A DNA stretch of 40,850 nt, from positions 1 to 40,850 of IMG/VR virus record IMGVR_UViG_3300048918_000334; one strand, 5' to 3'. The stretch comes from a virus. Positions within the stretch are counted from its first letter, which is position 1. Each line of letters starts with the position of its first letter. The notes under the pieces are model-generated. The model was not told where the DNA came from. It searched no databases and saw nothing but the letters and a program-made list of their open reading frames with translations. Positions 1-37,149 of this stretch are shown one piece after another. Both the position numbers and the translations under genes were made by a program.

Positions 1-134
1 GATCCGGACATGGCGAAGGGAGACTTCGGCTGGCCCGCCTTCGACGTCTGGCTGCTCGACGAACGCTTCCGGTCGTTCCTGCCGAAAGAGGCTTGCCGGG
101 ACGTGACGCCACGAACGGCGTTCGCGGTTGCTGC
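1..134. repeat. Terminal direct repeat (left copy), circular-closure overlap
   Basis: Bases 1-134 reappear at 40717-40850. The only difference is base 21 (a) against base 40737 (c), a silent Gly codon change. The reading frame of the replication gene runs unbroken through the junction, so the genome is circular or circularly permuted with a unit length of 40716 bp. It is best read as an assembly overlap rather than a packaged terminal repeat, because it falls in the middle of a gene far from the terminase end. Confidence 0.9.
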
Positions 135-354
135 GCCACTGAGCGACGGCCTGGCGCTGCTGCGCGACGAGGTCGCCCAGGTCGATCCGACCGCAGCGGC
201 CTGCCTCGACCGCGCCCGTTTCGGGACCGGCGGGGCGATCCAGCCCTCGACCCATTGGGCCTATGACCGCCTGCGGTCCGTGGCCGACCCCATCATCCGC
301 CGCTACGGCTTCGAGCTGATCGAACCGGGCGTCGCCATTGGAGCGAACCGTTGA
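1..354 (+). CDS. Replication initiator (3' part of the gene beginning at 40090)
   Basis: Frame 1 is open from base 1 and continues the protein begun at 40090; the junction codons agree in the duplicated 134 bases. An ATG at base 10 exists but is internal and should not be taken as the start. This part gives the last 117 residues, ending ...EPGVAIGANR. One of the distributed 19-bp palindromes (109-127) lies here, coding R-T-A-F-A. The stop TGA (352-354) overlaps the TTG start of the NusG-like gene. Confidence 0.75.
   Translation, partial: DPDMAKGDFGWPAFDVWLLDERFRSFLPKEACRDVTPRTAFAVAAPLSDGLALLRDEVAQVDPTAAACLDRARFGTGGAIQPSTHWAYDRLRSVADPIIRRYGFELIEPGVAIGANR
109..127. promoter_or_regulatory. Distributed 19-bp palindrome, site 1
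   Basis: CCACGAACGGCGTTCGCGG, inside the replication gene. Fits YSRCGAACSSSGTTCGYGR. Nearest site to the candidate origin (about 320 bases on the circle). Confidence 0.75.
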
Positions 355-983
355 ACCCCGCATCGCGCAACTACGTCATCGGCCAGCAAGTTGAGCCAGC
401 CGCCCTCCGCCACCGTCCTCGCTATGCCCTCAACCTGGCCGATGGGCTTAGCGATGACCACGCGGGCCTGCGCTGGTATTTCGCCCGCGCGGCGACGCGG
501 CAGGAGGCCAAGGCCGAGGAAAGCCTGACGACTGCCGGCGTCGCGTTCTACTTCCCGCGGCTGACCCGCTGGGGAGACCATGGCCGCAAGAAGATCAAGG
601 TCCGCCAATCGTTGTTCGAGGGCTACGGGTTTGTGGGCCTGGCAGACGGGCAGTCCCTCTATGAGTTGCCTGACCTGCAGGGCTTCTGCGGCGTCATCCG
701 CTTCGGGCGCGAGGCCTGCCCGCCGCCTGTCCCGATGCGCCTCATCGCGCCGATCGTCACGTCTGAGCTCGCCGGGCATTACGACCGCACGCTCGACGCC
801 GACGAGGTCGAGGCGGTCGGGTTCGAAAAGGACGAGATCATTCGCGTCGTCGACGGCGCATTCGCGGGCTTCAACGCCTGCATCTTGCGCCTGCCGTCCC
901 GCAAGCGGGTCGAGATCCTGGTCTCGATCTTCGGGCGATCGTCGCGGGTCGATCTGCCCGTCACCGCAATCCGGAAAATGTGA
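351..983 (+). CDS. NusG-family transcription antiterminator, phage-encoded
   Basis: The protein is 210 residues. Residues about 41-137 match the NusG N-terminal domain (start RWYFARAATRQEAKAEESL, then FYFPR and a GYGFVGL strand). Residues about 157-210 look like a KOW domain (EIIRVVDGAFAGFNACIL, ending in a ...VDLPVTAIRKM strand). NusG/RfaH relatives bind RNA polymerase and change pausing and termination. The gene is last in the early/replication operon, and is followed by an array of hairpins and then by the late genes, the same order as lambda O-P-Q. The likely job is therefore to let polymerase read through into the late operon. The start is TTG 351 inside the upstream stop (TTGA overlap); the first 40 residues are not part of the fold and a later start is possible. 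Confidence 0.75.
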   Translation: MNPASRNYVIGQQVEPAALRHRPRYALNLADGLSDDHAGLRWYFARAATRQEAKAEESLTTAGVAFYFPRLTRWGDHGRKKIKVRQSLFEGYGFVGLADGQSLYELPDLQGFCGVIRFGREACPPPVPMRLIAPIVTSELAGHYDRTLDADEVEAVGFEKDEIIRVVDGAFAGFNACILRLPSRKRVEILVSIFGRSSRVDLPVTAIRKM

Positions 984-1027
984 CCTCTTGCAGCCGCGCG
1001 CAAATCAGTTCTGTTTTCGCTCCCAAG

Positions 1028-1041
1028 CCCGCCACGGCGGG
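1028..1041 (+). other. Short hairpin in late leader
   Basis: CCCGC (1028-1032) pairs with GCGGG (1037-1041) around a 4-base loop. No T-run follows. It is the first of several GC-rich hairpins in the noncoding stretch 984-1380. Confidence 0.4.
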
Positions 1042-1134
1042 AGGGACGACCGGCTGACGTAAGACGAGCTGGCAAGGCCAGACAGCCGATCCCGAGGCGC
1101 CCAGCGCACCTCAGATGTGGGCTAGTGCCCGAAG

Positions 1135-1170
1135 AGCCCGCCGCAGCCAACGGCGGGCTTCGTCGTTTCC
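1135..1170 (+). terminator. Terminator-like hairpin 1 downstream of the NusG-like gene
   Basis: A perfect 9-bp stem, AGCCCGCCG (1135-1143) with CGGCGGGCT (1151-1159), 7-base loop, followed by a T-rich run (ttcgtcgttt). It would terminate transcripts leaving the early operon and is a plausible target for the upstream NusG-like protein. Confidence 0.6.
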
Positions 1171-1247
1171 GAGCCTTGGGTATTCCACGCGCCCACCAGC
1201 GCCGGAGGCCAAGCCATGTAACGGGACACTCACGCATCCCACCATTG

Positions 1248-1280
1248 AGCCCGTCATGGCCTGCCATGGCGGGCTTTCTG
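1248..1280 (+). terminator. Terminator-like hairpin 2 in late leader
   Basis: A 12-bp stem with one G-U pair: 1248-1259 pairs with 1264-1275 around a 4-base loop, followed by ttctgct. It shares the AGCCCG/CGGGCT base with hairpin 1, about 113 bases upstream, so the two look like a repeated element. Confidence 0.55.
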
Positions 1281-1333
1281 CTGAGTGGGGGCTTCGGCCT
1301 CAACCCGCCCTGTGGGCGTTCCTACCTCAACTC

Positions 1334-1370
1334 GGCGGCGCTGGCCCATCCGGCGCCGCCGCTCTCTTTC
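1334..1370 (+). terminator. Terminator-like hairpin 3 just before the HNH gene
   Basis: GGCGGCGC (1334-1341) pairs with GCGCCGCC (1353-1360) around an 11-base loop, followed by gctctctttc. A smaller stem (CGCCC 1306-1310 with GGGCG) sits just upstream. The last ten bases before the HNH start carry its ribosome site (GGAAGAGG). Confidence 0.4.
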
Positions 1371-1380
1371 GGAAGAGGTC

Positions 1381-1743
1381 ATGGGGTCCCTGCGCAACAT
1401 CCGACCGCGCATTGGCGTCATGCCGCCGCGGTTGAAGCGCGGGTCGGACGACGAGGGACACGGCGAAGCGTCCGAGCCTTGGCGCAAGTGGTATCATTGG
1501 GCGCGGTGGAAGCATCCGCAGCACGGCCTGCGCATCCGCGTCCTGCTTCGCGATCTCTTCACGTGCCAATGGCCGGGCTGCGGGCGATGCGAGAACGACA
1601 CCTCGCAGCTCGTCGCTGACCACAAGACCCCTCATCGCGGCGACCCTGACCTCTTCTGGGATGAGGACAACCTCTGGACCCTCTGCAAGCCCCACCACGA
1701 CGGGGCAAAGCAGGCGCAGGAGCGCCGGTCAGCCAGGGGGTAG
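1381..1743 (+). CDS. HNH endonuclease, packaging-associated
   Basis: The protein is 120 residues from ATG 1381, chosen for its GGAAGAGG ribosome site at 1371-1378. An in-frame upstream extension would run through the leader hairpins and has no ribosome site. The C-terminal half has the HNH pattern: CQWPGCGRC zinc-knuckle cysteines, the VADHKTPHRG segment with Asp-His, an acidic N-rich stretch (DEDNLWTLC) and a final KPHHD. Small HNH proteins beside terminase stimulate cos cleavage in HK97-type phages. Its position directly before the terminase pair fits that role. Confidence 0.85.
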   Translation: MGSLRNIRPRIGVMPPRLKRGSDDEGHGEASEPWRKWYHWARWKHPQHGLRIRVLLRDLFTCQWPGCGRCENDTSQLVADHKTPHRGDPDLFWDEDNLWTLCKPHHDGAKQAQERRSARG

Positions 1744-1812
1744 GGGGGTCGAAAGTGCAGCGCCGCACGCCTCGGACACCGGCACCACTCTCACGCAGGG
1801 AATTTTTTTCGG

Positions 1813-2304: not shown

Positions 2305-2305
2305 C

Positions 2306-4018
2306 ATGGACTGGTCGACAGCATGTCCCGATTGGGCTGAGCGCCTCGTCGCGCGCCGCTCGATCATCCCGAAGCCGCTCTTCGCCGAAGAGGCGGCCAA
2401 GGCGCTAGCGGTCTTCAAGCGCCTGCGTATCGTCGACGCGGCCGGGTCGCCGACCTTCGGGGAGGCCTGCGAACCCTGGGTCTTCGAATTCGTCGCGGCG
2501 ATCTTCGGGGCCTACGACGCCGCCGCTGGCCGCCGTCTGATCCGCGAATTCTTCCTGCTGATCAGCAAGAAGAACTCGAAATCGACCATCGCCGCCGGGA
2601 TCATGGTCACGGCGCTTGTGCGCAACTGGCGCAAGTCCGCCGAGCTGCTGCTGCTCGCGCCGACCCTTGAGGTCGCCAACAACGCCTTCGCGCCAGCCCG
2701 CGACATGATCTTGGCCGATCCCGAACTGCGAGATCTGCTCTACATCCAGGAGCATCTGCGCCAGATCACCCATCGGCTGACCAAGGCGGTCCTCAAGGTC
2801 GTCTCGGCCGACAACGACGTCGTCAGCGGCAAGAAGGCCGCCTTCGTTTTGGTCGACGAACTCTGGGTGTTCGGCAAGAAGCCGAAGGCCGACGCGATGC
2901 TGCGCGAGGTGACCGGCGGACTTGTATCGCGGCCCGAGGGCTTCGTGATCTTCCTCTCGACGCAGTCCGACGACGGGCCAGCCGGCGTATTCAGGGCGAA
3001 ACTCGACTACTTCCGCTCGGTCCGCGACGGGCGGATCGTCGATCCCAAGAGCCTGCCTATAATCTTCGAGTTCCCCGAGGCCATGGTGGCGGCCGAGGCC
3101 TACCTCGACCCGGCGAATTTCTACCTCACCAACCCCAACCTGGGCCGGTCAGTCGACGCCGAGTGGCTGCTCGACGAGCTGACCAAGGTGCTGAATGCCC
3201 GCGGCGGCGAGAAGCAGGCCTTCCTCGCCAAGCACCTGAACGTCGAAATCGGCCTGGGTCTGCACGCCGACCGCTGGCGCGGCGCCGACTACTGGCTGAC
3301 CGCGACCGATGCGAAGATCACCATCGCGGACCTGAAACGCCGCTGCGAGGTCTGCGTCGTCGGTATCGACGGCGGCGGCTTGGATGACTTGCTGGGTCTG
3401 ACCGTGATGGGCCGCGAACGCGGTTCGCGGCGCTGGCTTTCGTGGTCCAAGGCCTGGGTTCAGAGCGACGTTCTACGGCTGCGACCGGAGATCGCGCCTG
3501 TGCTTCGCGACTTCGAGGCCGACGGTGACTTGGTCATCTTCGATCTGGCACCGGCCGAGGACGGCGGCGTCCCGCAGGTGCGAGATTTTTCCGAGGTCGC
3601 CGACATCTGCGAGGATCTCAACGAGGCGGGTTTGCTGCCGGAGGCTGGCGCGATCGGGCTCGACGCGGCGGGCGTCGCGACCCTGGTCGATGCTCTGGTC
3701 GAGCGTGGCCTCACCAGCGAGCAGCTCGCCAGCGTGCCTCAGGGCTACAAGCTGCAGGGCGCGATCCTGGCCGGCGAGCGGAAGCTCAAGGACCGCACCT
3801 GGCGGCCTGCCTCGCAGCGCCTCATGGCCTGGTGCGTCGGCAACGCGAAAACCGAGATGAAGGGGTCCGCCATGCTGATCACCAAGCAGGTTGCTGGCAA
3901 GGCGAAGATCGACCCCTTGATGGCCGCGTTCGACGCGATCGAGCTGATGGCCCGCAATCCGGAGGCCAACGGCGTTGACCTCACCAGCTTCCTGAAGTCG
4001 GCGGCGATGTTCGCATGA
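2306..4018 (+). CDS. terL: Terminase large subunit
   Basis: The protein is 570 residues, the usual size for HK97-type large terminases. The ATPase has a variant Walker A, SKKNSKS at residues 87-93, and Walker B VLVDE at 181-185, followed by a coupling-like segment (FLSTQSDD). The C-terminal nuclease half shows the acidic strand [11 protein letters not shown] and a further acidic strand VIFDLAP. It cuts concatemers and pumps DNA into the prohead. The portal gene start overlaps its stop (ATGA). One distributed palindrome (3412-3430) lies inside, coding E-R-G-S-R. Confidence 0.95.
3412..3430. promoter_or_regulatory. Distributed 19-bp palindrome, site 2
   Basis: CCGCGAACGCGGTTCGCGG, inside terL, read in the frame E-R-G-S-R. 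Confidence 0.75.
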
Positions 4019-8369: not shown

Positions 8370-8972
8370 ATGGACGTCCTGGTCGTCACGCCCCCCGTAC
8401 CCGTCGTCAGCCTGGCGCTGGCGAAGGCGCATCTGGATGTGGTTAGGGGCGATCAGGACAACCTCATTCTAGCCTACGTGGCCGCCGCCACCGGGCAACT
8501 AGACGGTCCCGGCGGATGGCTGGGCCGCGCCCTCGGGCGTCAGACCCTGCTTGCCGAGATGGACGGCTTCGAGACGTGGCGCCGTGACGAACGGCATCGT
8601 CACAGCTCAAGGCGCCAGGGCTTCATTCCACTGCCCTATCCACCGATCGCCTCGATCGAGAGCGTTGCCTACGACGATCCACAGGGCATCGAGCAGGTGC
8701 TTGGCCCTGACCTCTATACGTTGCAGGCGCAGGGCCTCTTACTGACCGCAGGCGCATCCTTCCCGGCCACCAGCGAGCAGCGCGGATGCGTGCGCATCAC
8801 CTATGTCGCTGGCGAGGAAGCGATCCCCGCCGCGATCGTCGCCGCCATCCTGCTGATGGTTGGCGACATCTATCAGAACCGCGAAACGACAGACACAGGG
8901 CGGGTCGCCAAGATCCCGATGAGCATGGCCGTAGAGATGCTGCTTTCGCCCTACCGGTCGTGGTTCGCCTGA
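8370..8972 (+). CDS. Head-tail connector, gp6-like (phiE125 gp8 type)
   Basis: The protein is 200 residues. It has the family pattern of an N-terminal SLALAKAHLDVVRGDQDNLILAYV-type helix pair (quoted in part), a central PLPYPPIASIESVAYDD strand and a C-terminal AIPAAIVAAILLMVGDIYQNRE helix. These proteins form the ring below the portal that completes the head. ATG 8370 lies five bases after the preceding stop. Confidence 0.85.
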   Translation: MDVLVVTPPVPVVSLALAKAHLDVVRGDQDNLILAYVAAATGQLDGPGGWLGRALGRQTLLAEMDGFETWRRDERHRHSSRRQGFIPLPYPPIASIESVAYDDPQGIEQVLGPDLYTLQAQGLLLTAGASFPATSEQRGCVRITYVAGEEAIPAAIVAAILLMVGDIYQNRETTDTGRVAKIPMSMAVEMLLSPYRSWFA

Positions 8973-9001: not shown

Positions 9002-9020
9002 TCGCGAACGCGGTTCGCGA
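9002..9020. promoter_or_regulatory. Distributed 19-bp palindrome, site 3
   Basis: TCGCGAACGCGGTTCGCGA, a fully symmetric copy apart from its centre, in the gap before the 9047 gene. Confidence 0.8.
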
Positions 9021-9046: not shown

Positions 9047-9532
9047 ATGCGCTTCTTCCGTACCTTGATCGCCTGCGCGGCTGGCCTGTTGCTCAGCACC
9101 CTGCCCTTGGTGGCGCATGCGACGGATCTTTCCGTCACCGCAGCCAGTGTCCTGCCGGCCACCGACGCCGTTCTGCAAACCGGCGTTGCGGGCGAGGCGG
9201 TCACGGCTGGTCAGCTCGTCTACAAAAAGGCGGCTGACGGCAAGTGGTACAAGGCCGACTGCAACTCCGCGACGGCCGAGGTCAGGGTCGCTTCGGGGGT
9301 CGTCACCAACGGCGCCGCCGCCGGTCAGCCGGTTGTCGTGCAGCGGAGCGGGTCGATCACCATCGGCGCGACGCTGACCGCCGGGACGGTCTACTACCTC
9401 TCGGGGACCGCGGGAGGCATCCGCCCTGTCGCGGACAATACGACCGGCGACTATCCGCAGGCCGTCGGGATCGCGACCTCGACCACGGTGTTGAAGCTCA
9501 ACTTCGTACTCGCCGCCGGCGTCGCCCTCTAG
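9047..9532 (+). CDS. Secreted-type beta-barrel protein (capsid-cement-like, DUF2190-like) with Sec signal peptide
   Basis: The protein is 161 residues. Residues 1-25 form a classic Sec signal peptide: Arg near the start, hydrophobic core LIACAAGLLLSTLPLVA, then AHA before TDLS. The rest is a beta-rich domain (GEAVTAGQLVYKKAADGKWY ... LTAGTVYYLSGTAGGI ... YPQAVGIAT) resembling the DUF2190 phage decoration fold. A signal peptide is unusual for a virion-region protein. A distributed palindrome (9002-9020) lies in the gap just upstream of its ribosome site. Related beta domains also occur at the C-terminus of the hub protein (17738-19732). Confidence 0.7.
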   Translation: MRFFRTLIACAAGLLLSTLPLVAHATDLSVTAASVLPATDAVLQTGVAGEAVTAGQLVYKKAADGKWYKADCNSATAEVRVASGVVTNGAAAGQPVVVQRSGSITIGATLTAGTVYYLSGTAGGIRPVADNTTGDYPQAVGIATSTTVLKLNFVLAAGVAL

Positions 9533-22917: not shown

Positions 22918-22960
22918 CCGCCTGACGCGCCTCCCGCGTCGCCTCCTGAAGGATCACCCC

Positions 22961-24353: not shown

Positions 24354-24372
24354 CCGCGAACCGCGTTCGCGA
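24354..24372. promoter_or_regulatory. Distributed 19-bp palindrome, site 7
   Basis: CCGCGAACCGCGTTCGCGA, in the gap after the beta-helix gene, two bases past its stop. Confidence 0.8.
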
Positions 24373-24397: not shown

Positions 24398-24832
24398 ATG
24401 GTGCAGACCTGGGTTCAGGAGGCGGCGGCGCTTGCCTCGGCGATGGGGCTGGGCGGCCTGCTCAAGGCCGGCTTCGACGCCTGGCGGGCGAAGATCGTCG
24501 GCAGGGCGAAGGAGCCGGCCGCCCTGATCACCTCCAACGCGGAGTTCGCCGCGGCGCTCAGCGACGCCGCGAAGAAGCTGCTCGAGGACTACCGCAACCA
24601 ACTCACCTTCGTTCGCGGCCGCTGCAACGAGCTCGAAGAGAAGGTCGACGCCTGCGAGGGCCGCCACGCCGACTGCGAGGGCAAGATCCGCGACTTCGAG
24701 CACCGCCTCGACGAGAGCGAGCGCGACCGCCTGAGCCTGCAACTCCGGATCGACCGGCTGATGGAAGAGCATCCGCCCGCCGACTACGGCCCGACGCTCA
24801 TTCGCGGCGTCGTTCCCCCCACCAAAGCCTGA
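24398..24832 (+). CDS. Coiled-coil protein at head of lysis cluster, unknown
   Basis: The protein is 144 residues. The first ~35 residues are mildly hydrophobic/amphipathic (ALASAMGLGGLLKAGFDAW), followed by a helical segment and a long charged coiled coil (about 65-125) with two regularly spaced cysteines (DACEGRHADCEGK). The position before the holin-like and endolysin genes recalls i-spanin or lysis-regulator genes, but there is no clear transmembrane helix. Function open. Confidence 0.6.
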   Translation: MVQTWVQEAAALASAMGLGGLLKAGFDAWRAKIVGRAKEPAALITSNAEFAAALSDAAKKLLEDYRNQLTFVRGRCNELEEKVDACEGRHADCEGKIRDFEHRLDESERDRLSLQLRIDRLMEEHPPADYGPTLIRGVVPPTKA

Positions 24833-27095: not shown

Positions 27096-27114
27096 CCACG
27101 AACGCGGTTCGTGA
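27096..27114. promoter_or_regulatory. Distributed 19-bp palindrome, site 8
   Basis: CCACGAACGCGGTTCGTGA, in the gap between 27048 and 27128. Symmetry extends to CACGAAC...GTTCGTG. Confidence 0.8.
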
Positions 27115-27127: not shown

Positions 27128-27523
27128 TTACAAAACCGGCGGGGATTTGGGAAGTTCTGCAATCGCGCCAAGGTCTTGCGTCGGATCGGCGGACAGGGCG
27201 TCGGGACTATGTCGGGAGTTTTCGCAGGCCCTACGGTAGCGCCAGATCACTTGCTCAGTCGGATCGCATGGCTCGCCCGAGGCAGGGCATGTCCCGTCCT
27301 CGTCGGCGCAGTCGCGACACATGGGCGTCGGACCGATCACGGCGTCCACGATCTTGCGCCAGTCGGCGTTCCACATGGCGCACGCCTTTTCGAGCTGTTC
27401 GATCTTGGCGGCCGCTTCCTTGACCAGGGCGCGGGCGTCATCGTTCAGCGTCGTGCGGCCGTCCATCGCCGGCGCGCAGATACCGCCCATCGCCCAAAGC
27501 CGGCCGGATACATCGCTGCTCAT
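27128..27523 (-). CDS. Small cysteine-containing protein, unknown
   Basis: The protein is 131 residues from ATG 27523. The start is fixed by the repeated junction AAGGAAAGCCCCATGA and overlaps the preceding stop. It has a helix (ARALVKEAAAKIEQLEKACAMWNADW, partly quoted) then a cysteine-rich middle (MCRDCADEDGTCPASGEPC) that could bind zinc. No family recognised. Confidence 0.6.
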   Translation of the reverse strand: MSSDVSGRLWAMGGICAPAMDGRTTLNDDARALVKEAAAKIEQLEKACAMWNADWRKIVDAVIGPTPMCRDCADEDGTCPASGEPCDPTEQVIWRYRRACENSRHSPDALSADPTQDLGAIAELPKSPPVL

Positions 27524-27759
27524 GGGGCTTTCCTTCCGAACGCGCGGCCGAGGGCAGTCGCCCGATACCAAATGTTGTCGCGCCCGCCTCCGCCGTGGCC
27601 GACGTAGTCGACCGCGACCAGGCCTGCGCGCTTCAGGGCATTGATCGCTGGCCAGGAGCGCCCATCGGCGAGCGCACCGCGCTGCTGATCCGGCGCGACG
27701 GCGCAGCCGGCGTCGAGGATGCGCTGCTGCGCGCTCGTCATGACGAGCTTCCCGGTCAT
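27520..27759 (-). CDS. Small winged-helix-like protein
   Basis: The protein is 79 residues from ATG 27759 at a repeated junction. The pattern SAQQRILDAG ... SWPAINALKRAGLVAVDYVG ... IWYRATALGRAF is what one expects of a small winged helix (recognition helix, then wing, then the 'Y..T..G' strand). It ends in -GRKAP with the stop overlapping the next ATG. It may be a DNA-binding regulator; not proven. Confidence 0.6.
   Translation of the reverse strand: MTGKLVMTSAQQRILDAGCAVAPDQQRGALADGRSWPAINALKRAGLVAVDYVGHGGGGRDNIWYRATALGRAFGRKAP
27521..27538 (-). repeat. Repeated stop/start junction, copy 1
   Basis: On the minus strand this reads GGAAGGAAAGCCCCATG. It supplies the ribosome site, the C-terminal KAP codons plus stop of the upstream gene, and the ATG of the downstream gene. 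Four similar copies are found at 27757-27773, 28008-28026, 28271-28287 and 28501-28516. Confidence 0.7.
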
Positions 27760-28010
27760 GGGGCTTTCCCTTCTCGACGATGATAGGCCCGCACGACGAT
27801 GGGGCTGTCCTTCAAGCCCATGGTCCTGACGGATAGAACGCCATTGGTCGGTACGTCGGCCGGCCGCCAAATGTGACCGCAGCCGTGGCACAGGTGCGAA
27901 CGGTGCGGCGGGTTCGTCCAGTCGCCCGCAGCCTCGTCGAGGTGTTGCTCTCCGCACTCCGGACAATAGAGCACCATGTCGATAGAGACCGGCTGCTGCG
28001 TTTCAGTCAT
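27756..28010 (-). CDS. Zinc-ribbon protein, small
   Basis: The protein is 84 residues from ATG 28010. A clear zinc ribbon, YCPECGEQHLDE...HLCHGCGHIWRPAD, with two C-x2-C pairs about 27 residues apart, is followed by a short basic tail ending EGKAP. It is preceded by GAGGAAGGAAAGCCCC, the operon's repeated start module. Likely nucleic-acid or protein binding. Confidence 0.65.
   Translation of the reverse strand: MTETQQPVSIDMVLYCPECGEQHLDEAAGDWTNPPHRSHLCHGCGHIWRPADVPTNGVLSVRTMGLKDSPIVVRAYHRREGKAP
27757..27773 (-). repeat. Repeated stop/start junction, copy 2
   Basis: Minus-strand AGAAGGGAAAGCCCCATG; identical to copy 1 over AAAGCCCCATGA. Codes the EGKAP end of 27756-28010 and the start of 27520-27759. 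Confidence 0.7.
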
Positions 28011-28026
28011 GGGGCTTTCCTTCCTC
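28008..28026 (-). repeat. Repeated stop/start junction, copy 3
   Basis: Minus-strand GAGGAAGGAAAGCCCCATG. Here the upstream gene stops before the module, so the DNA module is kept although the KAP codons are not used. This suggests that its value lies in translation initiation. Confidence 0.7.
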
Positions 28027-28273
28027 ACGCTCGGCCCTGCGGCGGCAAGACCCGGCGGCTGATATCGGCGAGGCGTTCCGGCATGGCCGAAGCGATTAGG
28101 GCGAAGACCTGATCTGGCGTCTGACCGCCCGTCGTCGACGCGGCGACATAGGTGCAGACGCCGGCGACGACGCTTTCCAGCGTGACCAGCACGTTCTGCG
28201 GAGAGCCTGCCGCCTTCACGAGGTCGACGACGATCCGGGGCGCGAGCTGGTTGTGGATCTCGGCTTCGGTCAT
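28025..28273 (-). CDS. Small protein, unknown
   Basis: The protein is 82 residues from ATG 28273, whose start overlaps the upstream stop. Mostly helical, with no cysteine cluster; it begins MTEAEIHNQLAPRIVVDLV. It ends 14 bases before the next ATG, the only gene in this series without an overlapping stop. Function unknown. Confidence 0.6.
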   Translation of the reverse strand: MTEAEIHNQLAPRIVVDLVKAAGSPQNVLVTLESVVAGVCTYVAASTTGGQTPDQVFALIASAMPERLADISRRVLPPQGRA

Positions 28274-28503
28274 GGGGCTTTCCCTTCTGCCGGAGCAGGT
28301 GGCGCGAACGGGTCGCCCAATGCGCGAGCGTAAGCGTCGCGGCGTTCGATGAACCATTGCGACACGTCATGACCGGGAGGACACGCCGAGCGCTGCGCGT
28401 AGCGATGCAAGGCGGTGTGCGCCTCGGCCCAGGCCTGCGCTGCCGCCTCGCCGCCCAGCTGCTCAAACTTGATCCGCTGGCGATCCTCGTCGGTTAGGGT
28501 CAT
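28270..28503 (-). CDS. Small protein, unknown
   Basis: The protein is 77 residues from ATG 28503, start overlapping the upstream stop; the same frame is open further upstream without a ribosome site. Begins MTLTDEDRQRIKFEQLGGEA, contains an HTALHRYAQRSACPPGHDVSQW segment (partly quoted), ends AEGKAP. Function unknown. Confidence 0.6.
   Translation of the reverse strand: MTLTDEDRQRIKFEQLGGEAAAQAWAEAHTALHRYAQRSACPPGHDVSQWFIERRDAYARALGDPFAPPAPAEGKAP
28271..28287 (-). repeat. Repeated stop/start junction, copy 4
   Basis: Minus-strand AGAAGGGAAAGCCCCATG, identical to copy 2. Codes EGKAP at the end of 28270-28503 and starts 28025-28273. Confidence 0.7.
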
Positions 28504-28769
28504 GGCGCTTTCTCCTTGCTCGCCGCGTCGGCGGCGCGATCGAGCTTCGCGAGCCACTGCTCGGCGGCGATCCTCGCGCCCGGCCCGAGCTCGGCGAGCG
28601 GGCGGCCGAAGTGGGTCCTGGCCATGGCATCGGCGGCGTCGGTCCGCCAGAAGGCGGCCAGCACATAGGCCTTGACCAGCCACCCACCGAGGCCCGTCTG
28701 CTTTCGCAGATCCCGATAGGCCGCGTTCAACCTGTCGCGGTCCGCCCGCGGGATTGCCGGGGCGTTCAT
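28500..28769 (-). CDS. Small helical protein, unknown
   Basis: The protein is 89 residues from ATG 28769, overlapping the recombinase stop (ATGA). Helical and charged (MNAPAIPRADRDRLNAAYRD...), ends SKEKAP at the first of the repeated junctions. Directly coupled to the recombinase gene, so co-expressed with it. Confidence 0.6.
   Translation of the reverse strand: MNAPAIPRADRDRLNAAYRDLRKQTGLGGWLVKAYVLAAFWRTDAADAMARTHFGRPLAELGPGARIAAEQWLAKLDRAADAASKEKAP
28501..28516 (-). repeat. Repeated stop/start junction, copy 5 (diverged)
   Basis: Minus-strand AAGGAGAAAGCGCCATG, one base different in the CCCC part. Codes KEKAP at the end of 28500-28769 and starts 28270-28503. Confidence 0.6.
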
Positions 28770-30457
28770 GCCGCCTCCGCCACCAGCGGGAAGGCGACGA
28801 TCATCGGGGGGGCCGGTTTGTAGCGGCCCCCAGCTACCAACCGGCTCCCCCAGGTCGACGCCTCGGGGGAGCCGTCCTCGCCGGCCAGGAAGCGCGACAA
28901 GTCGCCGTGAAGGCGCAGGTCAAGGCCGCCTTTCCCGCGCGGGTTCGGGATGATCTCGATCTTAGTGACGAGGCCGCGGGCGACGTCGATCAGGCGACGG
29001 TTCGCCGGCACGGTCGAGGCCGCCTCGCCATAATCCGCGAGCGCCTGGCGCAGCTCGCCGACGATCTTCGCATAGGCGTCGGCGGCGCCCGGATGCAGGG
29101 CGATCGGCGGCTCGGCCGGAGCCTGGGCGAGCTGACGGTCGATCGCGTCGCGCTCCGCCTCGAATTCGAGCGCGCGGGCCTTTGCGTCTGCCGTGGCCGT
29201 GCCGTCGCAGATCGCGTCGACAACCCGGCCAATCCGCCGCGTGAGCTCGGCCCGGCGGCGTTCGAGGGGTTGGCGCTCGGCCAGCCGCTCGCGGTCGAGG
29301 CGCTGCCATGCGGCGTGATAAGCGCGCACATAGGCGGCGACGGCCGCCGGCGCGAGCAGCCGCGTCTGCAGGCCTTCGAGCGCGCGGGCCTCGACCTCGG
29401 CGCGTAGAACCTTTCTTGAGTTTTGGCAGAACGACGAACCGCGTTCGCGGTTGCCCGCGCAGACGAGCTTGCCGCCGCCGAAGGCCGTATAAGACGACCC
29501 GCAGGCGCCGCACTTGAGCAGGCCGGAGAAGAGGCCGGGCTTGCGGCGGTTGCCAAGGGCGCGCGCCGCGCGCTGCGGATCGGCTGCGCCCGCGCCGCGC
29601 GCCGCATTGGCGGCGTGGCGGGCTTGCACGCGGTCCCACAGGTCCTGCGGGACAATCCGAAGATGCTCGACGCTCGTCCGCCGCCATTCCGAGGGCTGAC
29701 GCATGACCGGCGTTCTCTTGCCCGTCCTGGGGTCCTTGCGGACCTCCATGCGGTTCCAGACCTTCGCGCCGGCATAGATCTCCGAATGCAGCACGCCGTT
29801 GCCGCGCGCCGCCGAGCCGGAGATCGAGGACCCGTTCCAGAAGCCGCCGCGCGGGCCTGGCGCGCGCTCGCGGTTCAGGAGGTCGGCAATCTCGCGTCCG
29901 CTCATGTCGTAGTCGGCGAACAGGGTGCAGATGCGCCGGACGATCTCTGCCTCTTGCTCGACGATCACCTGCTCGCCACCGGGCGCGGTGCGGTAGCCGA
30001 ACAGCCGTGAGCCTGTCGCGAGGCCTTTCTCGGCGTTCGAGCGCATGCCGCGGCTGGTTTTCTGGCCGAGGTCGATCAGGTACTGCTGCCCGATCAGGCC
30101 CTTAAAGGCCGTCCGCATGAGGTCGACCTCGTCGGTCCCCAGCGTCGCCAGCGTGACCCCGCAGGCGTTCAGGTCGTCACGGATCGTCGCCAAGTGGCCG
30201 AGGTTTCGCGCGAGACGGTCCTCGTCCTCGACGAGCAGGATATCGAACTCGCCGCGGCCGGCGGCGGCTATGGCGGCCAGGAGGCCCGGCCGGTTCGCCA
30301 TGGCGAAGCCGGAAATCCCTGCGTCGTCGAAGCCGGCGACGATCGCCCAGCCGCGCGCCTTCGCGCGCTCCGCGCAAACGGCGTGCTGATCGGGGATCGA
30401 GCGGGCGTTCTGCCGGTCCTCGTTCGAGAACCTGGCGTAGATGGCGCAACGGTTCAC
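28766..30457 (-). CDS. Large serine recombinase (phage integrase)
   Basis: The protein is 563 residues from GTG 30457. The N-terminal resolvase domain (1-150) has the catalytic serine in CAIYARFS (Ser11), the LVEDEDRLARN segment with the conserved arginine, and the usual LMRTAFKGLIGQ linker. A recombinase domain follows (about 160-290), then a zinc ribbon (LLKCGACGSSYTAFGGGKLVC...SSFC) and a coiled-coil insertion (about 370-440). Such enzymes integrate phage DNA between attP and attB without host factors, and need a directionality factor for excision. Palindrome 29432-29450 lies in the zinc-ribbon codons. Confidence 0.95.
   Translation of the reverse strand: MNRCAIYARFSNEDRQNARSIPDQHAVCAERAKARGWAIVAGFDDAGISGFAMANRPGLLAAIAAAGRGEFDILLVEDEDRLARNLGHLATIRDDLNACGVTLATLGTDEVDLMRTAFKGLIGQQYLIDLGQKTSRGMRSNAEKGLATGSRLFGYRTAPGGEQVIVEQEAEIVRRICTLFADYDMSGREIADLLNRERAPGPRGGFWNGSSISGSAARGNGVLHSEIYAGAKVWNRMEVRKDPRTGKRTPVMRQPSEWRRTSVEHLRIVPQDLWDRVQARHAANAARGAGAADPQRAARALGNRRKPGLFSGLLKCGACGSSYTAFGGGKLVCAGNRERGSSFCQNSRKVLRAEVEARALEGLQTRLLAPAAVAAYVRAYHAAWQRLDRERLAERQPLERRRAELTRRIGRVVDAICDGTATADAKARALEFEAERDAIDRQLAQAPAEPPIALHPGAADAYAKIVGELRQALADYGEAASTVPANRRLIDVARGLVTKIEIIPNPRGKGGLDLRLHGDLSRFLAGEDGSPEASTWGSRLVAGGRYKPAPPMIVAFPLVAEAA
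29432..29450. promoter_or_regulatory. Distributed 19-bp palindrome, site 9
   Basis: CGACGAACCGCGTTCGCGG, inside the recombinase gene (zinc-ribbon codons). Confidence 0.7.
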
Positions 30458-32102: not shown

Positions 32103-33911
32103 TCAGGTGTGCGAGGCGCTGGCCGGAGCGCCGATCAGACGGCGCTCCCAGGGCGCGAGGCCGCCCGCGTTTTCGGAGCCGCCGTCGTCCTCGTGGTCGG
32201 GCGCGGGGCCTTCGTCGCCGTCTCCCACTTCCCCGACGTCGAGGTCCGCGAGTTCGGGCGGGCTCTCGTCCGTCGCCGGCGGCGCCTGAGGCGTGGCGAG
32301 GCCTGCGGCGGTGTTCAGCGCGACGGCGAGCAGGGTCACGCGCGCGACAGTGTCGGGATGGGGCGGCGCGTGTTCGGGGAAGTCGTGCATCACGCGAGCG
32401 CCGTTCGCGGCGATGATCCCGGCGAGGCGGGTGGGATAGAGCGGAAGCGGCTTGCCGCTCGCCGCGAAGACGACGCCGAACAGTGGGTCGATCGCCTTCG
32501 GCGGCTTGGCGTCCAGCCGTTCGGCGAGCTGCAGGGCGGAGGTCAGCCGCGAGAGCGCCGCGGCCATCGCTTCGTCGGCCTCGACCTGCTGCTGCGCTTC
32601 TTCCCTGGCGCGGGCGTCCGCCTTGGTCTTGGCCTCGGCCTTGGCCTGCGCGATCTCGGCCAGTATTTCAGGGGCGGGGTCGAACGGCCCGTTCAGCCAT
32701 TCGGTCGCGTACCCCTCGGCGATCTCGACGGGGTTTCCGAAGACGGCCTCGCGCGCCTCGGCAAGCGCCTCGGCGCGCGTTTCGTCGTGATCAATGCCGC
32801 CGAACTTGAGCCGCAGGGCGTCGAGCCGATGCTCGAAGAAGCGGACGCAGGCGCGGCCGGTCGGCCAGCCGTCGGCGTCCTCGACCTGGCGGACCTCGGA
32901 AACGAGCCCAGCTGGAAGTTGGCTCAGGATCTCCAAGTCGCGGTCCTGATCGGCGACTTCCCGCACCGTCGCGGCGGGGCCGTTGAAGCCTGTTCCTTCG
33001 GTGACGGGGCTACGCTCCTGCGCGTCGAACAGTTCGAGCGCGATCAGCCATTGGCGGGACGTAAGCTTCAGGGGCTTCGGGCGCTTGCGAAGCCACTCGC
33101 GCGCGTCCGTCACGGACAGGGTCCCAAGCTCGACCTCGTCCTGCTTCGGCGCCGGGAGTTTCAGGAGCTCCATGCGCAGCTCGACATAGCGGACCGTCTT
33201 GTCGAGGCGGCTCGCGACGATCTCCTTCGCGTCCTTCAACTGCAGGTCCGGATCGGCGGCCATGCGGTCGGCGACGATGCGGGTGAAGGCGCGCGCCTCT
33301 TCCATGGGCGTCATGTCGTCGCGCTGGACGTTCTCGATCGTGGCGGCCTCGTGCGCCTGGGCGTCGGTCATGATCCGGAAGAGGGCGGGGATCGACGTCA
33401 GGCCAGCTTCGAACGCGGCGCGTTTTCGGCGCGACCCCGCGACGATGCGGAAGCGCCCGTCGGTCAGGCCCTGGCGGACGAGGACAGGCTGCAGCACGCC
33501 GTTGCTGCGGATCGATGCGGTCAGCTCTTCGAGCTTTTCGGCGTCCTTGGCGGCGGCGTCCTCGCCGAGCTTCTTCTTGCGCGGGTTCAGCTCGGGGTCA
33601 TCGTCGATCAGGTCGAGGGCGATCTCGCGCAATCCCTCGCCTTCGGGCGATACGCCGACCGCGCCAGCGCCCGCGTCAGGGTTGTTCGCCCTGTCGATGG
33701 CGGCCAGCACGCCGCGGCCCAGGTCGGTCAGGATCGGGGTCTTGCCGTCGCGGCTCGTCCAGCCCTTCGCGTCGCAGGCCTTGAGGCTTTTCGACAGGTT
33801 GGCGTGATCGCGGTTGAGGGCCGCGGCGAGGCTGGCGCCGGTCGCGTGGGCGCCGGTCCCGATCAGGGAGAGCAGGGGCGCGGCCTGCAGAGCTTCGGGC
33901 GTGAGGATCAA
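32103..33911 (-). CDS. ParB/KorB-family DNA-binding protein (CTP-switch type)
   Basis: The protein is 602 residues from TTG 33911, chosen for its GGAG ribosome site and because it follows a small upstream gene; the frame continues to an ATG at 34055 but would cross that gene. Residues about 10-65 look like an added winged helix. Residues about 95-205 are the ParB N-terminal domain with LIDDDPELNPRKK, the CTP-binding GSRRKR box (159-164) and ENVQRDDMTPMEEA (193-206). An HTH follows (about 213-250: LKDAKEIVASRLDKTVRYVE). The rest (260-602) is unlike chromosomal ParB: helical, coiled-coil, acidic tail. ParB proteins load at parS and slide as CTP clamps. No ParA gene is present. Likely ligand: the eleven 19-bp palindromes. 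Confidence 0.85.
   Translation of the reverse strand: MILTPEALQAAPLLSLIGTGAHATGASLAAALNRDHANLSKSLKACDAKGWTSRDGKTPILTDLGRGVLAAIDRANNPDAGAGAVGVSPEGEGLREIALDLIDDDPELNPRKKKLGEDAAAKDAEKLEELTASIRSNGVLQPVLVRQGLTDGRFRIVAGSRRKRAAFEAGLTSIPALFRIMTDAQAHEAATIENVQRDDMTPMEEARAFTRIVADRMAADPDLQLKDAKEIVASRLDKTVRYVELRMELLKLPAPKQDEVELGTLSVTDAREWLRKRPKPLKLTSRQWLIALELFDAQERSPVTEGTGFNGPAATVREVADQDRDLEILSQLPAGLVSEVRQVEDADGWPTGRACVRFFEHRLDALRLKFGGIDHDETRAEALAEAREAVFGNPVEIAEGYATEWLNGPFDPAPEILAEIAQAKAEAKTKADARAREEAQQQVEADEAMAAALSRLTSALQLAERLDAKPPKAIDPLFGVVFAASGKPLPLYPTRLAGIIAANGARVMHDFPEHAPPHPDTVARVTLLAVALNTAAGLATPQAPPATDESPPELADLDVGEVGDGDEGPAPDHEDDGGSENAGGLAPWERRLIGAPASASHT
32392..32410. promoter_or_regulatory. Degenerate palindrome inside the parB-like gene
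   Basis: One mismatch in the left arm (CGAGC instead of CGAAC), the rest fits: GCC spacer, GTTCG, then CGG. May be a weak site or chance. Confidence 0.3.
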
Positions 33912-33925
33912 GGGGTTAGCTCCGA

Positions 33926-34819: not shown

Positions 34820-34983
34820 GCGGTCACCGCCAGGGCGGCGCCTGCGACGATCAGCATGCAGGCGGGGCCGAACGCGCGGGCGGCGACCATGCCGATCAGG
34901 CCCTTGCGGTCGGCGGAGGCGATCAGCAGGGCGACACCAAGGCCCGCCGCGACGCTTCCGATCACGACGCGAAGGCCGCTCAT
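34816..34983 (-). CDS. 55-residue membrane protein with two helices
   Basis: ATG 34983 overlaps the upstream stop and the TGA overlaps the next ATG. Two hydrophobic helices (VVIGSVAAGLGVALLIASA and ARAFGPACMLIVAGAALAV) are separated by a short polar turn (DRKGLIGMV). Inner-membrane protein of the early leftward operon; unknown role, perhaps exclusion. Confidence 0.55.
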   Translation of the reverse strand: MSGLRVVIGSVAAGLGVALLIASADRKGLIGMVAARAFGPACMLIVAGAALAVTA

Positions 34984-35222
34984 GATTGCGCCTCGCCGCG
35001 GCTGAGGCCGACGAGCAGGCCGCCCGCGCCCTGAAACAGTTCGAGGTAGTGGAAGCCCTGGCGGCAGTGGATGAAGAGGTCGCCCTCGCTGTCGGCCTCG
35101 ACCGTGGCGAGCCCATGGATCAGGCAGGCCTGGCGTGGCTGGACGAGGACGGTGTCTCCGGGCTTGAGATCGCCAAGGCGAAGCCCGTCTTCAGTGGCGA
35201 ACGCGGTTCGCGGGTCGGACAT
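34980..35222 (-). CDS. First gene of leftward operon, small beta protein
   Basis: The protein is 80 residues from ATG 35222. Core LKPGDTVLVQPRQACLIHG, then VEADSEGDLFIHCRQGFHYLELF (partly quoted) and GGLLVGLSRG. Paralogous to 34580-34819. Palindrome 35195-35213 lies in codons 4-9 (R-T-A-F-A), 10-28 bases after the start, so a bound protein there could block the operon. Promoter and operator OL lie upstream. Confidence 0.65.
   Translation of the reverse strand: MSDPRTAFATEDGLRLGDLKPGDTVLVQPRQACLIHGLATVEADSEGDLFIHCRQGFHYLELFQGAGGLLVGLSRGEAQS
35195..35213. promoter_or_regulatory. Distributed 19-bp palindrome, site 10
   Basis: TGGCGAACGCGGTTCGCGG, at the very start of the first gene of the leftward operon. 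Confidence 0.75.
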
Positions 35223-35233
35223 GGAAGGCCCCG

Positions 35234-35309
35234 GAACCCGCTGGGCCTGCGGTTGGTCTTACAGCCCCAACCTAATCAAGCGCCCATCGCCGGACCGGCC
35301 AGCGGGTTC
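35234..35309. promoter_or_regulatory. Leader of leftward operon with long inverted repeat
   Basis: GAACCCGCTGG (35234-35244) is repeated inverted as CCAGCGGGTTC (35299-35309). Between them is a second dyad, GGTTGG (35251-35256) with CCAACC (35267-35272). The transcript from OL/PL could fold into a nested structure immediately before the first gene, as expected for an attenuator or antitermination site. No T-run. Confidence 0.45.
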
Positions 35310-35333
35310 GGGCCTAGTAAGGAACCTGATTGC

Positions 35334-35346
35334 TTGACCGTGTCAA
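35334..35346. promoter_or_regulatory. Operator OL for the XRE repressor, overlapping a leftward -35 box
   Basis: TTGAC-CGT-GTCAA, a perfect 5+5 dyad. The same arms and flanks (GC before, CG after) recur at OR (35993). The minus-strand reading TTGACA is a consensus -35 element for the leftward operon; a -10 is not clear (TTACTA at 35320-35315 is too far by about three bases). Confidence 0.65.
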
Positions 35347-35374
35347 CGACGGGTTTGCAAATACCTGTCGTCGT

Positions 35375-35974
35375 CTACCGTAAAGACGGCTCGTCCCGCT
35401 TGGCGGCCTGCAGGAAGACAGCGAAATAGGCCTCAAGCTCTCGAAGGCCTTCCGGCGTCATGTGGCTCGGATAGCGGAAGGTCACCGGCCCGTCGCGCGT
35501 CGGGAACACCGCCTCGACCATGCCGCCGTCAAAGGGCGTCGGACGTTCGGCGACCCCGCCGGTCGCCCCGACCTCCGTCGCGAGACGGCGAAGGCGCGAG
35601 GCGGCGGTTTCCGCCGGTCCGCCGCTCATTTCGGCCATGACCGCGTCGAGGTCTTCCAGCGTAAGCGGCTCTGAGCCGGGCGGCGCTGCGGTGTTCAGGG
35701 CGTCGATCAGGCCTTGCTGCACGCCGGGGTCATAGATGCCGCGCAGATGACCGTTCTCGATCGAGCCCCAATGCTGCTTCGAGAAGTCATCCGCGTGGCC
35801 GGCGGCGGCCTGTTCCTGGCTGAGGCCCAGCCGGTCGCGGAGGATGCGGAGCGCCTGGCCGACCTTCAGTCGCCCCGGGTCGACACGGCGTCCGGGCGCC
35901 GCAGGTCGCGTTGTTGCCATGTGGAAAGCATGGCGAAGAGGGCGCGCCTGATCGAGCGTCTGAAGCATTGCCAT
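35375..35974 (-). CDS. XRE-family repressor (CI-like)
   Basis: The protein is 199 residues from ATG 35974, or 181 from ATG 35920; neither has a good ribosome site, so a leaderless message is possible. An XRE helix-turn-helix spans residues about 36-80 (LKVGQALRILRDRLGLSQEQ ... KQHWGSIENGHLRG). The C-terminal part (TRDGPVTFRYPSHMTPEGLRELEAYF) is a short alpha/beta segment and not an S24 peptidase, so induction would not be by RecA-stimulated self-cleavage. It is flanked by matching operators OL and OR. Probably maintains lysogeny. Confidence 0.8.
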   Translation of the reverse strand: MAMLQTLDQARPLRHAFHMATTRPAAPGRRVDPGRLKVGQALRILRDRLGLSQEQAAAGHADDFSKQHWGSIENGHLRGIYDPGVQQGLIDALNTAAPPGSEPLTLEDLDAVMAEMSGGPAETAASRLRRLATEVGATGGVAERPTPFDGGMVEAVFPTRDGPVTFRYPSHMTPEGLRELEAYFAVFLQAAKRDEPSLR

Positions 35975-35992
35975 ACCTAGGAAGCTAGACGC

Positions 35993-36005
35993 TTGACCAA
36001 GTCAA
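35993..36005. promoter_or_regulatory. Operator OR for the XRE repressor
   Basis: TTGAC-CAA-GTCAA, same arms and same flanking GC/CG as OL. It lies in the divergent gap between the repressor start (35974) and the Cro-like gene (36054). Each strand contains a TTGAC[C/T] -35-like hexamer, so repressor binding would cover both promoters. -10 boxes are not clear by eye. Confidence 0.65.
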
Positions 36006-36053
36006 CGGATCACTTGAGTTAAAGGGGCCAAGCGACCTGCGGAGCCCGCGCAC

Positions 36054-36335
36054 TTGGCCGACGACGTCACCCTTTCCCCACCGCCCCGCGCACCGCGCGT
36101 CGTCGCGCGCCCGGCCCTGGCCGGCTGGATGTTCCGCCGCAACATGGACCTGCGGGCGGGTGGCAAGTTCTTCGGGGTCAGCCATGAGACGGTGCGCCGC
36201 TGGGGCCTGCCGTTCGACCATCCGAACAGGCTGACGCCCGACGCCGCGGAGCGCGAGCGGATCGACCTGCTCACGGCGGGCGAGGTTCCGCCCGACAGCT
36301 TCGATCCGCCTAGCTCGGCGGGGCGTCCATCATGA
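36054..36335 (+). CDS. Cro-like / helix-turn-helix regulator
   Basis: The protein is 93 residues from TTG 36054, with GGAG about ten bases upstream; first ATG in frame (36129) would remove part of the fold. Contains an HTH (WMFRRNMDLRAGGKFFGVSHETVRRWGLPF) with YdaS/Cro-like spacing (partly quoted). Divergent from the repressor across OR, the place of cro in lambda. Overlaps the end of 36310-36600 on the other strand. Confidence 0.65.
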   Translation: MADDVTLSPPPRAPRVVARPALAGWMFRRNMDLRAGGKFFGVSHETVRRWGLPFDHPNRLTPDAAERERIDLLTAGEVPPDSFDPPSSAGRPS

Positions 36336-36600
36336 CGCCGCGCGCATCCTCGACGTCGCGGCCCCGCGGGCAAGCCCTGCAGGCGGCGCAGAGTGAGTTC
36401 AGCGCCCGGACGGCGCCGAAGCGGATGGCGAGCGGGTCTTCCCCATCGTCATCGTCGAGGACGTCGACCGGCGCCGCATATGCAGCGTCGCAGGCGCGGT
36501 CCATCGCCACGCGGCAGACATCGTCCGGGACCCCGTCGGCGATGCTGAACAGCGCCAGCAAGGCGAGGCGCATTTCGGCTGGGCGCGCGAAGAGCAGCAC
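36310..36600 (-). CDS. Small protein, unknown, opposite strand to the early rightward operon
   Basis: The protein is 96 residues from GTG 36600, which follows GGGGAGAAGAC at good spacing. Composition is protein-like: LLFARPAEMRLALLALFSIA, an acidic DVLDDDDGEDP turn, and a C-terminal cluster LCAACRACPRGRD that may bind metal. The + strand frame here is a Ser/Arg-rich shadow. It converges on and overlaps the Cro-like gene by 26 bases. Confidence 0.5.
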   Translation of the reverse strand: MLLFARPAEMRLALLALFSIADGVPDDVCRVAMDRACDAAYAAPVDVLDDDDGEDPLAIRFGAVRALNSLCAACRACPRGRDVEDARGVMMDAPPS

Positions 36601-36741
36601 GTCTTCTCCCCATTTTTCATTGCCCCGGCTCGCGCAGGCTGGGGCGACCGCCAACATCGCCCGTCGCGCGGAGCATGAGCCCCCGCATCCCTCGCCGTTG
36701 AGTTGCGCGCGGATCGCCTTAACGCCTCGGAAACAAACGTC

Positions 36742-37149
36742 ATGAACGGGCAACGTCCGCGAACGCCGTTCGTGAGCCGCAGCCGCGACTTCGCAGCTAG
36801 CCTCATCGAGCAGCGCCGAGCGTGGATCGTGTTTCTCGGCGCCTGCAAGGCGCAGGGCCACCTGGCCGTCGGCGAGCGTTGGCCGTTCGAGGACGACGCG
36901 CGGTCGTTCGCGAACCTGATCGCGCGGCTGACCGCCTTCCCGGTGCGGATCAGCTCGGCCGTCGAGGTCGCCGAGGCGACGCGGCGGATCGGCCGAGCTC
37001 TGGCGGACAGCCGCAACCCGATCGACCGCGCCGAGCTCGGCGCCCTGCTGCTCTCGTCTGCGGCCTTCCTTGAGCGGATGCTGTCCGAAGACGTCCAGGC
37101 CGCCGCGGCGCTGTCGCGTCGGATTTCCGGCGAGGCGGACGATGACTGA
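36742..37149 (+). CDS. Early protein, unknown
   Basis: The protein is 135 residues from ATG 36742 (weak GGAAA ribosome site). Helical, with RAWIVFLGACKAQGHLAVGE and FANLIARLTAFPVRISSAVE. Palindrome 36757-36775 covers codons 6-11 (R-T-P-F-V), close to the start as at the leftward operon. Overlaps the next gene by eight bases. Confidence 0.6.
   Translation: MNGQRPRTPFVSRSRDFAASLIEQRRAWIVFLGACKAQGHLAVGERWPFEDDARSFANLIARLTAFPVRISSAVEVAEATRRIGRALADSRNPIDRAELGALLLSSAAFLERMLSEDVQAAAALSRRISGEADDD
36757..36775. promoter_or_regulatory. Distributed 19-bp palindrome, site 11
   Basis: CCGCGAACGCCGTTCGTGA, at the start of the first gene of the rightward early cluster (36742). Confidence 0.75.

Follow-up and report, generated by a model that had tools for sequence, protein, structure and literature searches.

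The virus record IMGVR_UViG_3300048918_000334 (IMG/VR; 40,850 bases, analysed in full and called the window below) carries the gapped palindrome CGAAC-N3-GTTCG at eleven scattered places, together with a gene for an orphan ParB-family protein of 602 amino acids (aa). Judging from sequence comparisons, we consider it likely that these palindromes are loading sites for the ParB protein and are used for genome-wide coverage. That its helix-turn-helix (HTH) domain, HTH_ParB, recognises CGAAC-X-N-X'-GTTCG is strongly inferred, because sites and proteins both co-occur and covary. Genome-wide organisation or control of phage DNA is the most likely use of such an arrangement.

Palindromes and an orphan ParB in the window

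The coordinates that an initial annotation had given for eleven sites are all correct, and a further exact match (core at 40828) duplicates the first, giving 12 in total; it lies in a 134-base terminal repeat whose copies are 99% identical, which implies a real genome of ~40,716 bp that is circular or terminally redundant. As that annotation had also held, the copies agree beyond the core (the extended consensus YSRCGAACSSSGTTCGYGR fits 12 of 12 on the + strand with zero mismatches), far fewer than one copy is expected (mean 0.07 in 100 dinucleotide-preserving shuffles, largest count 1), and the gaps run from about 0.6 to 5.8 kb (634–5,838 bp as measured). On a circle, the sites are spaced more evenly than random placement would give (p = 0.005). 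A spacer of 3 yields the 12 copies and each remaining spacer in the range 0–14 yields 0–3, while places two mismatches away from GCGAAC-N3-GTTCGC are at control level (5, control mean 4.1). The intragenic copies occupy all three reading-frame offsets, which rules out a repeated peptide as their source. The sites (no strand assigned) and the ParB gene are as follows.

109–127: site 1, CCACGAACGGCGTTCGCGG, exact match; duplicated by the terminal repeat at 40825–40843
3412–3430: site 2, exact match; within the terminase large subunit gene
9002–9020: site 3, exact match; between frames 8370–8972 and 9047–9532
14840–14858: site 4, exact match; within the tape-measure gene
19134–19152: site 5, exact match; within tail-protein frame 17171–19732
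19768–19786: site 6, exact match; within tail gene 19725–21353
24354–24372: site 7, exact match; between frames 22874–24352 and 24398–24832
27096–27114: site 8, exact match; outside called genes
29432–29450: site 9, exact match; within the serine integrase gene
32392–32410: degenerate site, ACGCGAGCGCCGTTCGCGG; inside parB, one core base differs
35195–35213: site 10, exact match; within small minus-strand frame 34980–35222
36757–36775: site 11, exact match; within frame 36703–37149
40825–40843: terminal duplicate of site 1, exact match; in the terminal repeat
32103–33911, minus strand: orphan ParB, 602 aa (PF02195, E 1e-20; PF17762, E 6e-5; structure model; fold matches in the Protein Data Bank, PDB)

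The ParB protein consists of an N-terminal winged HTH (residues ~1–76), a ParB_N clamp domain, an HTH_ParB domain (~199–276) and a long, variable C-terminus. ParB_N scores 73.9 bits with PF02195 (cut-off 26.3) and HTH_ParB 23.5 bits with PF17762 (cut-off 22.6); the start codon at 33911 was read as TTG, and an alternative, longer GTG frame would encode 650 aa. The conserved boxes G-x-R-R and E-N-x-x-R are present as GSRRKRA and ENVQR, and in alignment A4 residues E193, N194 and R197 are invariant, with G159, R161, R162 and R164 kept in at least 90% of sequences. A structure model (mean predicted local distance difference test, pLDDT, 70; predicted template modelling score, pTM, 0.39; good for residues ~1–70 and most of 91–270, poor for the C-terminus) folds into a winged HTH, a ParB clamp and an HTH domain, and the best PDB folds for its ParB core are KorB of plasmid RK2 (8qa9), a Noc structure and then ParB. 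The model places a winged HTH (pLDDT ~80–92), with weak matches to SlyA (E ~0.005), at the N-terminus and shows no membrane helix. Stretches resembling a winged HTH stand at the N-terminus in 10 of 11 aligned ParB rows, the eleventh (L204) having been trimmed by the choice of start and showing one in a separate comparison.

Association of the sites with ParB proteins

Scanning IMG/VR with CGCGAACSSSGTTCGCG returned at least 118 stretches, and CGAACSSSGTTCG was counted in 50 whole virus records (44 chosen among the matches listed and 6 from terminase relatives). Three to 14 copies are held by 38 of these records and 0–2 by the other 12; none of the 50 contains the reversed control word. In a de novo search of 19 records for gapped palindromes, a form of CGAAC-N3-GTTCG came top or joint top in each of the 16 site-rich ones (for G008 as CGCGAA-N5-TTCGCG, in the same register); in the remaining three the top word was not clearly of this form. 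Among 80 loci of terminase relatives, only 4 contain a copy; the sites therefore do not track structural lineage, and an accident of lineage was rejected as their cause. Terminators or RNA hairpins were rejected as well: around 359 sites the flanking sequence has nearly background composition and lacks a T run, and a terminator scan of window positions 34900–36500 found none. LexA-type boxes, which have spacers other than 3, were rejected because spacer 3 alone is strongly enriched.

The most widely shared protein is ParB. Among 1,500 predicted proteins (at least 80 aa; 42 records including the window), ranked by sharing at E 1e-3 with no gene chosen beforehand, it recurs in 34 of 42 records, the query's own included, and the next protein in 22; small or fast-evolving proteins could escape this ranking. 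PF02195 is found in 30 of the 38 records with at least three sites versus 3 of the 12 with fewer (Fisher p 0.0012), and a ParB profile adds one more site-rich record (G023). Two of the three site-poor records with ParB (G027 and G044, the first 40 kb of each) carry the recognition helix of this class, termed class A, and in them GCGAAC-N3-GTTCGC occurs 2 and 3 times with at most one mismatch (control words, 0.17).

Starting from the protein, a search with profile A3 found 56 ParB loci, of which four (L277, L278, L284, L286) lie in records already counted and two (L330, L332) were scanned at the locus only, with no site. Among the 50 new ParB records, the six closest (42–58% identity) hold 3–9 sites, the seventh (40%) holds 1 and 43 hold none. 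The sequences behind profile A3 came from phages that carry sites, so neither identity nor site content is free of the influence of ancestry. The scan of related phages proposed in the initial annotation thus finds sites and ParB together, both site-first and protein-first, and its assignment of the sites to the ParB-like protein is supported by this co-occurrence and by the covariation of site and helix described below.

One further record (G060, loci L410–L412) encodes a ParB with a class-A-like helix and matches the site exactly once; its places at two mismatches total 9, about one standard deviation over control, and include five GCGAA-N5-TTCGC variants, and its site code has perhaps drifted. 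Matches to the class-A ParB core at less than 60% identity are encoded by 3,602 plasmid records, mostly of Escherichia and other enterobacteria.

Ownership of the motif by a host protein, which the initial annotation had named as a way for its proposal to fail, would be in keeping with the finding that 153 of 385 genomes (the class of the Nitrospirillum genome, that genome included) hold at least one copy. Counts per genome, however, run from 0 to 8, and those of the reversed control from 0 to 16. Relatives of three class-A ParBs (profile A2, window protein not included) occur in Nitrospirillum iridis, Azospirillum picis and Skermanella stibiiresistens. In these genomes of 7–8 Mb, a single 45-kb stretch or contig of 51–53 kb accounts for 8 of 8, 10 of 10 and 9 of 11 copies. 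Altogether, 27 of 29 copies in these three lysogens are confined to one phage stretch or contig per genome, the same one that bears ParB as matched by contig number and position. Background counts in hosts and clustering on the ParB stretch make the motif a property of the phage, and host ownership is largely refuted, with almost no probability left to it.

Site and protein also vary together. Over 359 sites in 43 records, G (0.70) or C (0.29) flanks the central base on either side. Within a phage one of the two mostly prevails, and this inner base follows the residue aligned with position 201 of Caulobacter ParB. This residue is E or A in 19 of 24 inner-G proteins (20 of 24 once four unassigned rows and the misread L275 are read by hand) versus 0 of 12 inner-C proteins, and R or K in 0 of 24 versus 7 of 12; inner-C ParBs have R, K, S or T there, and 11 of the 12 carry an RMTLPxDD-like insertion, or a variant of it, immediately before it. 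Labels follow the majority of sites, so that G007 (13 C, 5 G) and G037 (12 C, 4 G) count as inner-C; a mixed label was given to the window (13 G, 9 C) and to G038 (16 C, 11 G), both of which have T at this position. The numbering was checked by hand, the aligned Caulobacter sequence fitting the residue numbers in PMC7383237. According to that paper, Noc uses R201 to read C at position 6, which is the corresponding place, a striking agreement.

A second ParB class goes with a different palindrome. Phages VarioGold (L415) and Aval (L413) encode orphan-type ParBs of 771 and 953 aa and contain no CGAAC-N3-GTTCG; GTGCA-N6-TGCAC is present in 6 copies in VarioGold and 4 in Aval (0.08 expected in each), with one copy inside parB in each phage, and two IMG/VR relatives of the VarioGold ParB have 6 and 5 copies. 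Scanning for this word returned at least 120 stretches; when 46 records among the matches listed were searched whole, 29 held at least 3 copies, and PF02195 is found in 25 of these versus 12 of the 17 with 1–2. The recognition helix of the second class has S172 in 28, R173 in 22, Y175 in 25 and Y177 in 24 of the 28 read (from 30 proteins), and that of class A has T172 in 29, R174 in 30 and Q/E177 in 34 of the 36 read (from 38), where the search pattern itself demands some of the tallied letters, so that the class-A counts at 174, 176, 177 and 179 are biased (the unbiased alignment is separate). Since the recognition helix differs between the classes, protein class and DNA word change together. 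The accessible text of the VarioGold paper names the ParB-like domain and does not contain the word 'palindrome' (PMC9658991). Pseudomonas phage MD8, with a ParB of 288 aa, has no CGAAC-N3-GTTCG and no clear palindrome array. In two other ParB-bearing viral contigs (L293, L317), TGTAACC-N5-GGTTACA occurs in 3–4 copies within 20 kb, perhaps a third protein–site code.

Several observations weigh against this pairing and the broader reading built on it. Neither PF02195 nor the profile finds a class-A ParB in 7 of the 38 site-rich records (G006, G008, G010, G011, G018, G025, G039). Four of these seven are contigs of 30–36 kb, G018 and G039 (36–37 kb) seem by eye to consist mainly of structural genes, and several may be fragments; G010 is 51 kb long. 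A ParB-like frame of 397 aa in G025 was not counted as class A, as by eye it resembles a methyltransferase fusion. The initial annotation had staked its proposal on related phages not keeping the sites while lacking the gene: this holds for the 31 site-rich records with ParB but falls short in these seven. In the second class, similarly, 4 of the 29 records with at least three sites lack PF02195, which most of those with 1–2 copies (12 of 17) do have. The joint variation of site and HTH that the annotation had suggested looking for is borne out in that the inner base follows the 201-aligned residue and the other helix class has another palindrome, but the inner-base part is confounded with ancestry, with one well-supported independent pair and three on the best tree. 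Two pairs of inner-G rows cannot be told apart in the tree, which was built from the ParB_N part, and the covariation allows no significance test; with so few independent pairs and with identical rows, ancestry could still be its source.

The seven site-rich records without a detectable class-A ParB would suit ownership of the sites by another phage protein (a repressor, integrase or methylase), with ParB as a passenger. This we regard as improbable: the next most shared protein reaches only 22 of 42 records, the inner base tracks a DNA-contact residue of ParB, and another word accompanies the other ParB class.

Spacing, gene context and possible roles

Gaps vary less than the random median in 38 of the 42 records with at least four sites, with p < 0.05 in 17 (Fisher's combined p for even spacing, ~1e-21), and the gaps over these phages have a median of 3.8 kb (quartiles 2.6–5.8 kb). 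The combined p is too small because the records are related, and the spacing is not individually significant in 25 of the 42, both of which count against coverage. The sites are enriched between genes (151 of 359 versus 87 expected, by an imperfect gene call that misses genes such as the 17.7–19.7 kb frame), which a transcriptional role also predicts and which therefore falls on the same side of the balance. In gaps between tandem genes the sites lean to the upstream gene's stop and not to the next start (26, 18, 15, 11 and 11 of 81 by fifths). By hand count, 12 of the 32 records in which parB was mapped have a site no more than 450 bp from the approximate middle of ParB_N, where ~6 would be expected from the mean gap.

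The absence of a ParA, stated in the initial annotation, stands as far as PF13614, the sole ParA model tried, can tell: it has no match in the window, and its hits, in 3 of 38 records, are partial (two above cut-off), none adjoining parB. The ParA-binding motif [LFI]G[KR]G[LFI] is found in 0 of 31 ParBs; the window ParB has LGRGV, one letter off, within its winged HTH. As no ParA was found, this is not a canonical partition machine; canonical ParABS systems have their parS sites clustered near one origin, and the sites here are evenly spread.

In the reading we prefer, the orphan phage ParB would load at the parS-like palindromes through HTH_ParB and, by analogy with the ParB/Noc/KorB family, close into a clamp with nucleotide and slide along flanking DNA. 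With some ten sites at gaps of mostly 2.6–5.8 kb, such clamps could extend over the entire phage genome but hardly any other DNA in the cell; KorB slides up to 1.5 kb (PMC11790492), so that from sites a few kb apart clamps would have much of the genome within reach. A further point on the opposing side is that the sequence gives no nucleotide use, since the nucleotide of ParB-fold proteins is reported to be unpredictable from sequence and 17 of 28 tested bound no nucleoside triphosphate (NTP) (PMC12704722).

Within this coverage reading, we favour a role early in infection, in which phage DNA would be kept open or apart, over that of a prophage repressor: ParB might displace host silencers, as VirB does, or organise phage DNA. 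The preference rests on spacing that looks like coverage, on sites that are not promoter-centred, and on gene order. In VarioGold and Aval, parB belongs to a run of minus-strand genes, with a repressor-like gene on one side and an integrase on the other, and the window has a similar minus-strand order (HTH gene at 35375, parB, integrase), with these neighbours.

28766–30457, minus strand: large serine integrase (phrog_95; PF00239 and PF07508), context for a temperate lifestyle
35375–35974, minus strand: HTH protein, candidate repressor (PF13560, E 9e-6; 26.3 bits, slightly below the cut-off of 27)

A KorB-like global repressor, whose clamps would slide to distant promoters and silence the lytic genes of the prophage, with the winged HTH as a built-in stopper like KorA, is possible though unlikely. 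KorB is the top fold match of the ParB core, reaches promoters up to 1.5 kb away and is locked by KorA (PMC11790492); the N-terminal stretches and the weak SlyA matches would suit a built-in stopper, and the enrichment between genes would suit repression. The lean towards the previous gene's stop speaks against it, however, as do the regular spacing, which a promoter map does not require, and the separate CI-like or HTH protein near parB in VarioGold and Aval.

Unlikely as well, and ranked after the repressor, is a Noc- or SMC-like role, in which the ParB–DNA complex would tether, condense or place phage DNA (segregation without ParA, packaging choice, nucleoid occlusion). Noc is itself an orphan ParB (PMC12704722), its structure is the second fold match, and regular spacing suits condensation. 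The N-terminus of the window ParB, however, is modelled as a winged HTH and not as a membrane helix, and with integrases in the window, VarioGold and Aval, partition of the prophage is not obviously needed in these three.

Extending the coverage reading, we tentatively put forward a phage-specific chromatin in many temperate phages: an orphan ParB clamp, in at least ten of them with a winged HTH fused ahead of it, would load at regular, private sites and coat the genome as self, apart from the host chromosome, and lineages would have evolved different protein–site codes, perhaps beyond CGAAC-N3-GTTCG and GTGCA-N6-TGCAC. If this is true, differing codes could allow co-infecting phages to keep separate coats.

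Elsewhere in the window, genes for terminase, portal, protease, capsid, tape measure and endolysin form a siphophage set, and the phage looks like a temperate HK97-type siphophage; megablast of the first 25 kb against named phages gave no match. A sigma-70 promoter scan of 34900–36500 found none, and we therefore make no claim on the parB promoter. A NusG-domain protein of 210 aa (351–983, plus strand; PF02357, E 2e-7) is encoded upstream of the late genes and is possibly a phage NusG/RfaH-like antiterminator, and a C5 cytosine DNA methylase lies at 37528–38658 (plus strand; PF00145, phrog_363). A 22-nt repeat like CGGTCATGGGGCTTTCCCTTCT occurs four times at 27517–28288 (spacing 236–263 bp, at least 77% alike), perhaps as common gene-start signals, and a 19-nt repeat, CCAGCGCTCAAAATGAGCG, which holds an inverted repeat, occurs three times within 100 bp at 40408–40507 (one copy 84% alike), a possible operator cluster.

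Comparison with known systems

Orphan ParB genes of phages and prophages are widespread and mostly unexplained, and the putative sites would give them a target. A genome sequence by itself suffices to match protein with DNA word, so that function becomes directly testable; regular putative loading sites over a whole viral genome suggest genome coverage as their purpose, and the ParB–site pairs are potential new orthogonal systems of a type already used for DNA labelling in cells. We know of no phage precedent for clamp-loading sites spaced regularly over a whole viral genome. Titles and abstracts of the open-access literature (most subscription papers and bioRxiv preprints lying outside this scope) yielded no paper on scattered cognate sites for orphan phage ParBs. 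A 2025 survey reports orphan proteins of the ParB-CTPase fold, using varied nucleotides, to be widespread on phages, prophages and mobile elements outside parAB operons; it covers proteins, fusions and nucleotides, and its accessible text does not describe cognate site arrays in phage genomes (PMC12704722).

The stoperators of cluster A mycobacteriophages are likewise repressor sites repeated many times along the genome of a temperate phage, but they are 13-bp sites predominantly in one orientation (PMC6550527), asymmetric and bound by a monomeric repressor (PMC9283540). Stoperators are co-oriented with transcription, whereas the window sites are symmetric.

VirB of Shigella differs in controlling a plasmid virulence regulon, and to our knowledge has no evenly spaced site array. 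It is ParB-related, uses cytidine triphosphate (CTP) and counteracts H-NS silencing (PMC10676424, PMC10653881).

Noc uses residue 201 to read the inner base (PMC7383237), and the 201-aligned residue of the phage ParBs may do likewise. Noc and the chromosomal ParBs are relatives of the window ParB with the same DNA-reading helix region, and Noc too is an orphan. Noc sites are scattered. The phage word has an odd, 13-bp core, in contrast to the even parS/NBS word, and the class-A recognition helix is rewritten relative to Noc and ParB (mostly T172, R174, Q/E177, R179).

The operators of KorB (O_B) are scattered odd-length palindromes, about a dozen in number, and the window sites are likewise scattered over their replicon. 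The window system differs in its site sequence, its N-terminal winged HTH, its phage genome and its even spacing; no KorA-type partner was identified for the window ParB, and no search aimed at one was made. KorB nevertheless belongs, like the window protein, to the ParB family, and its CTPase clamp acts over kilobases from several operators (PMC11790492).

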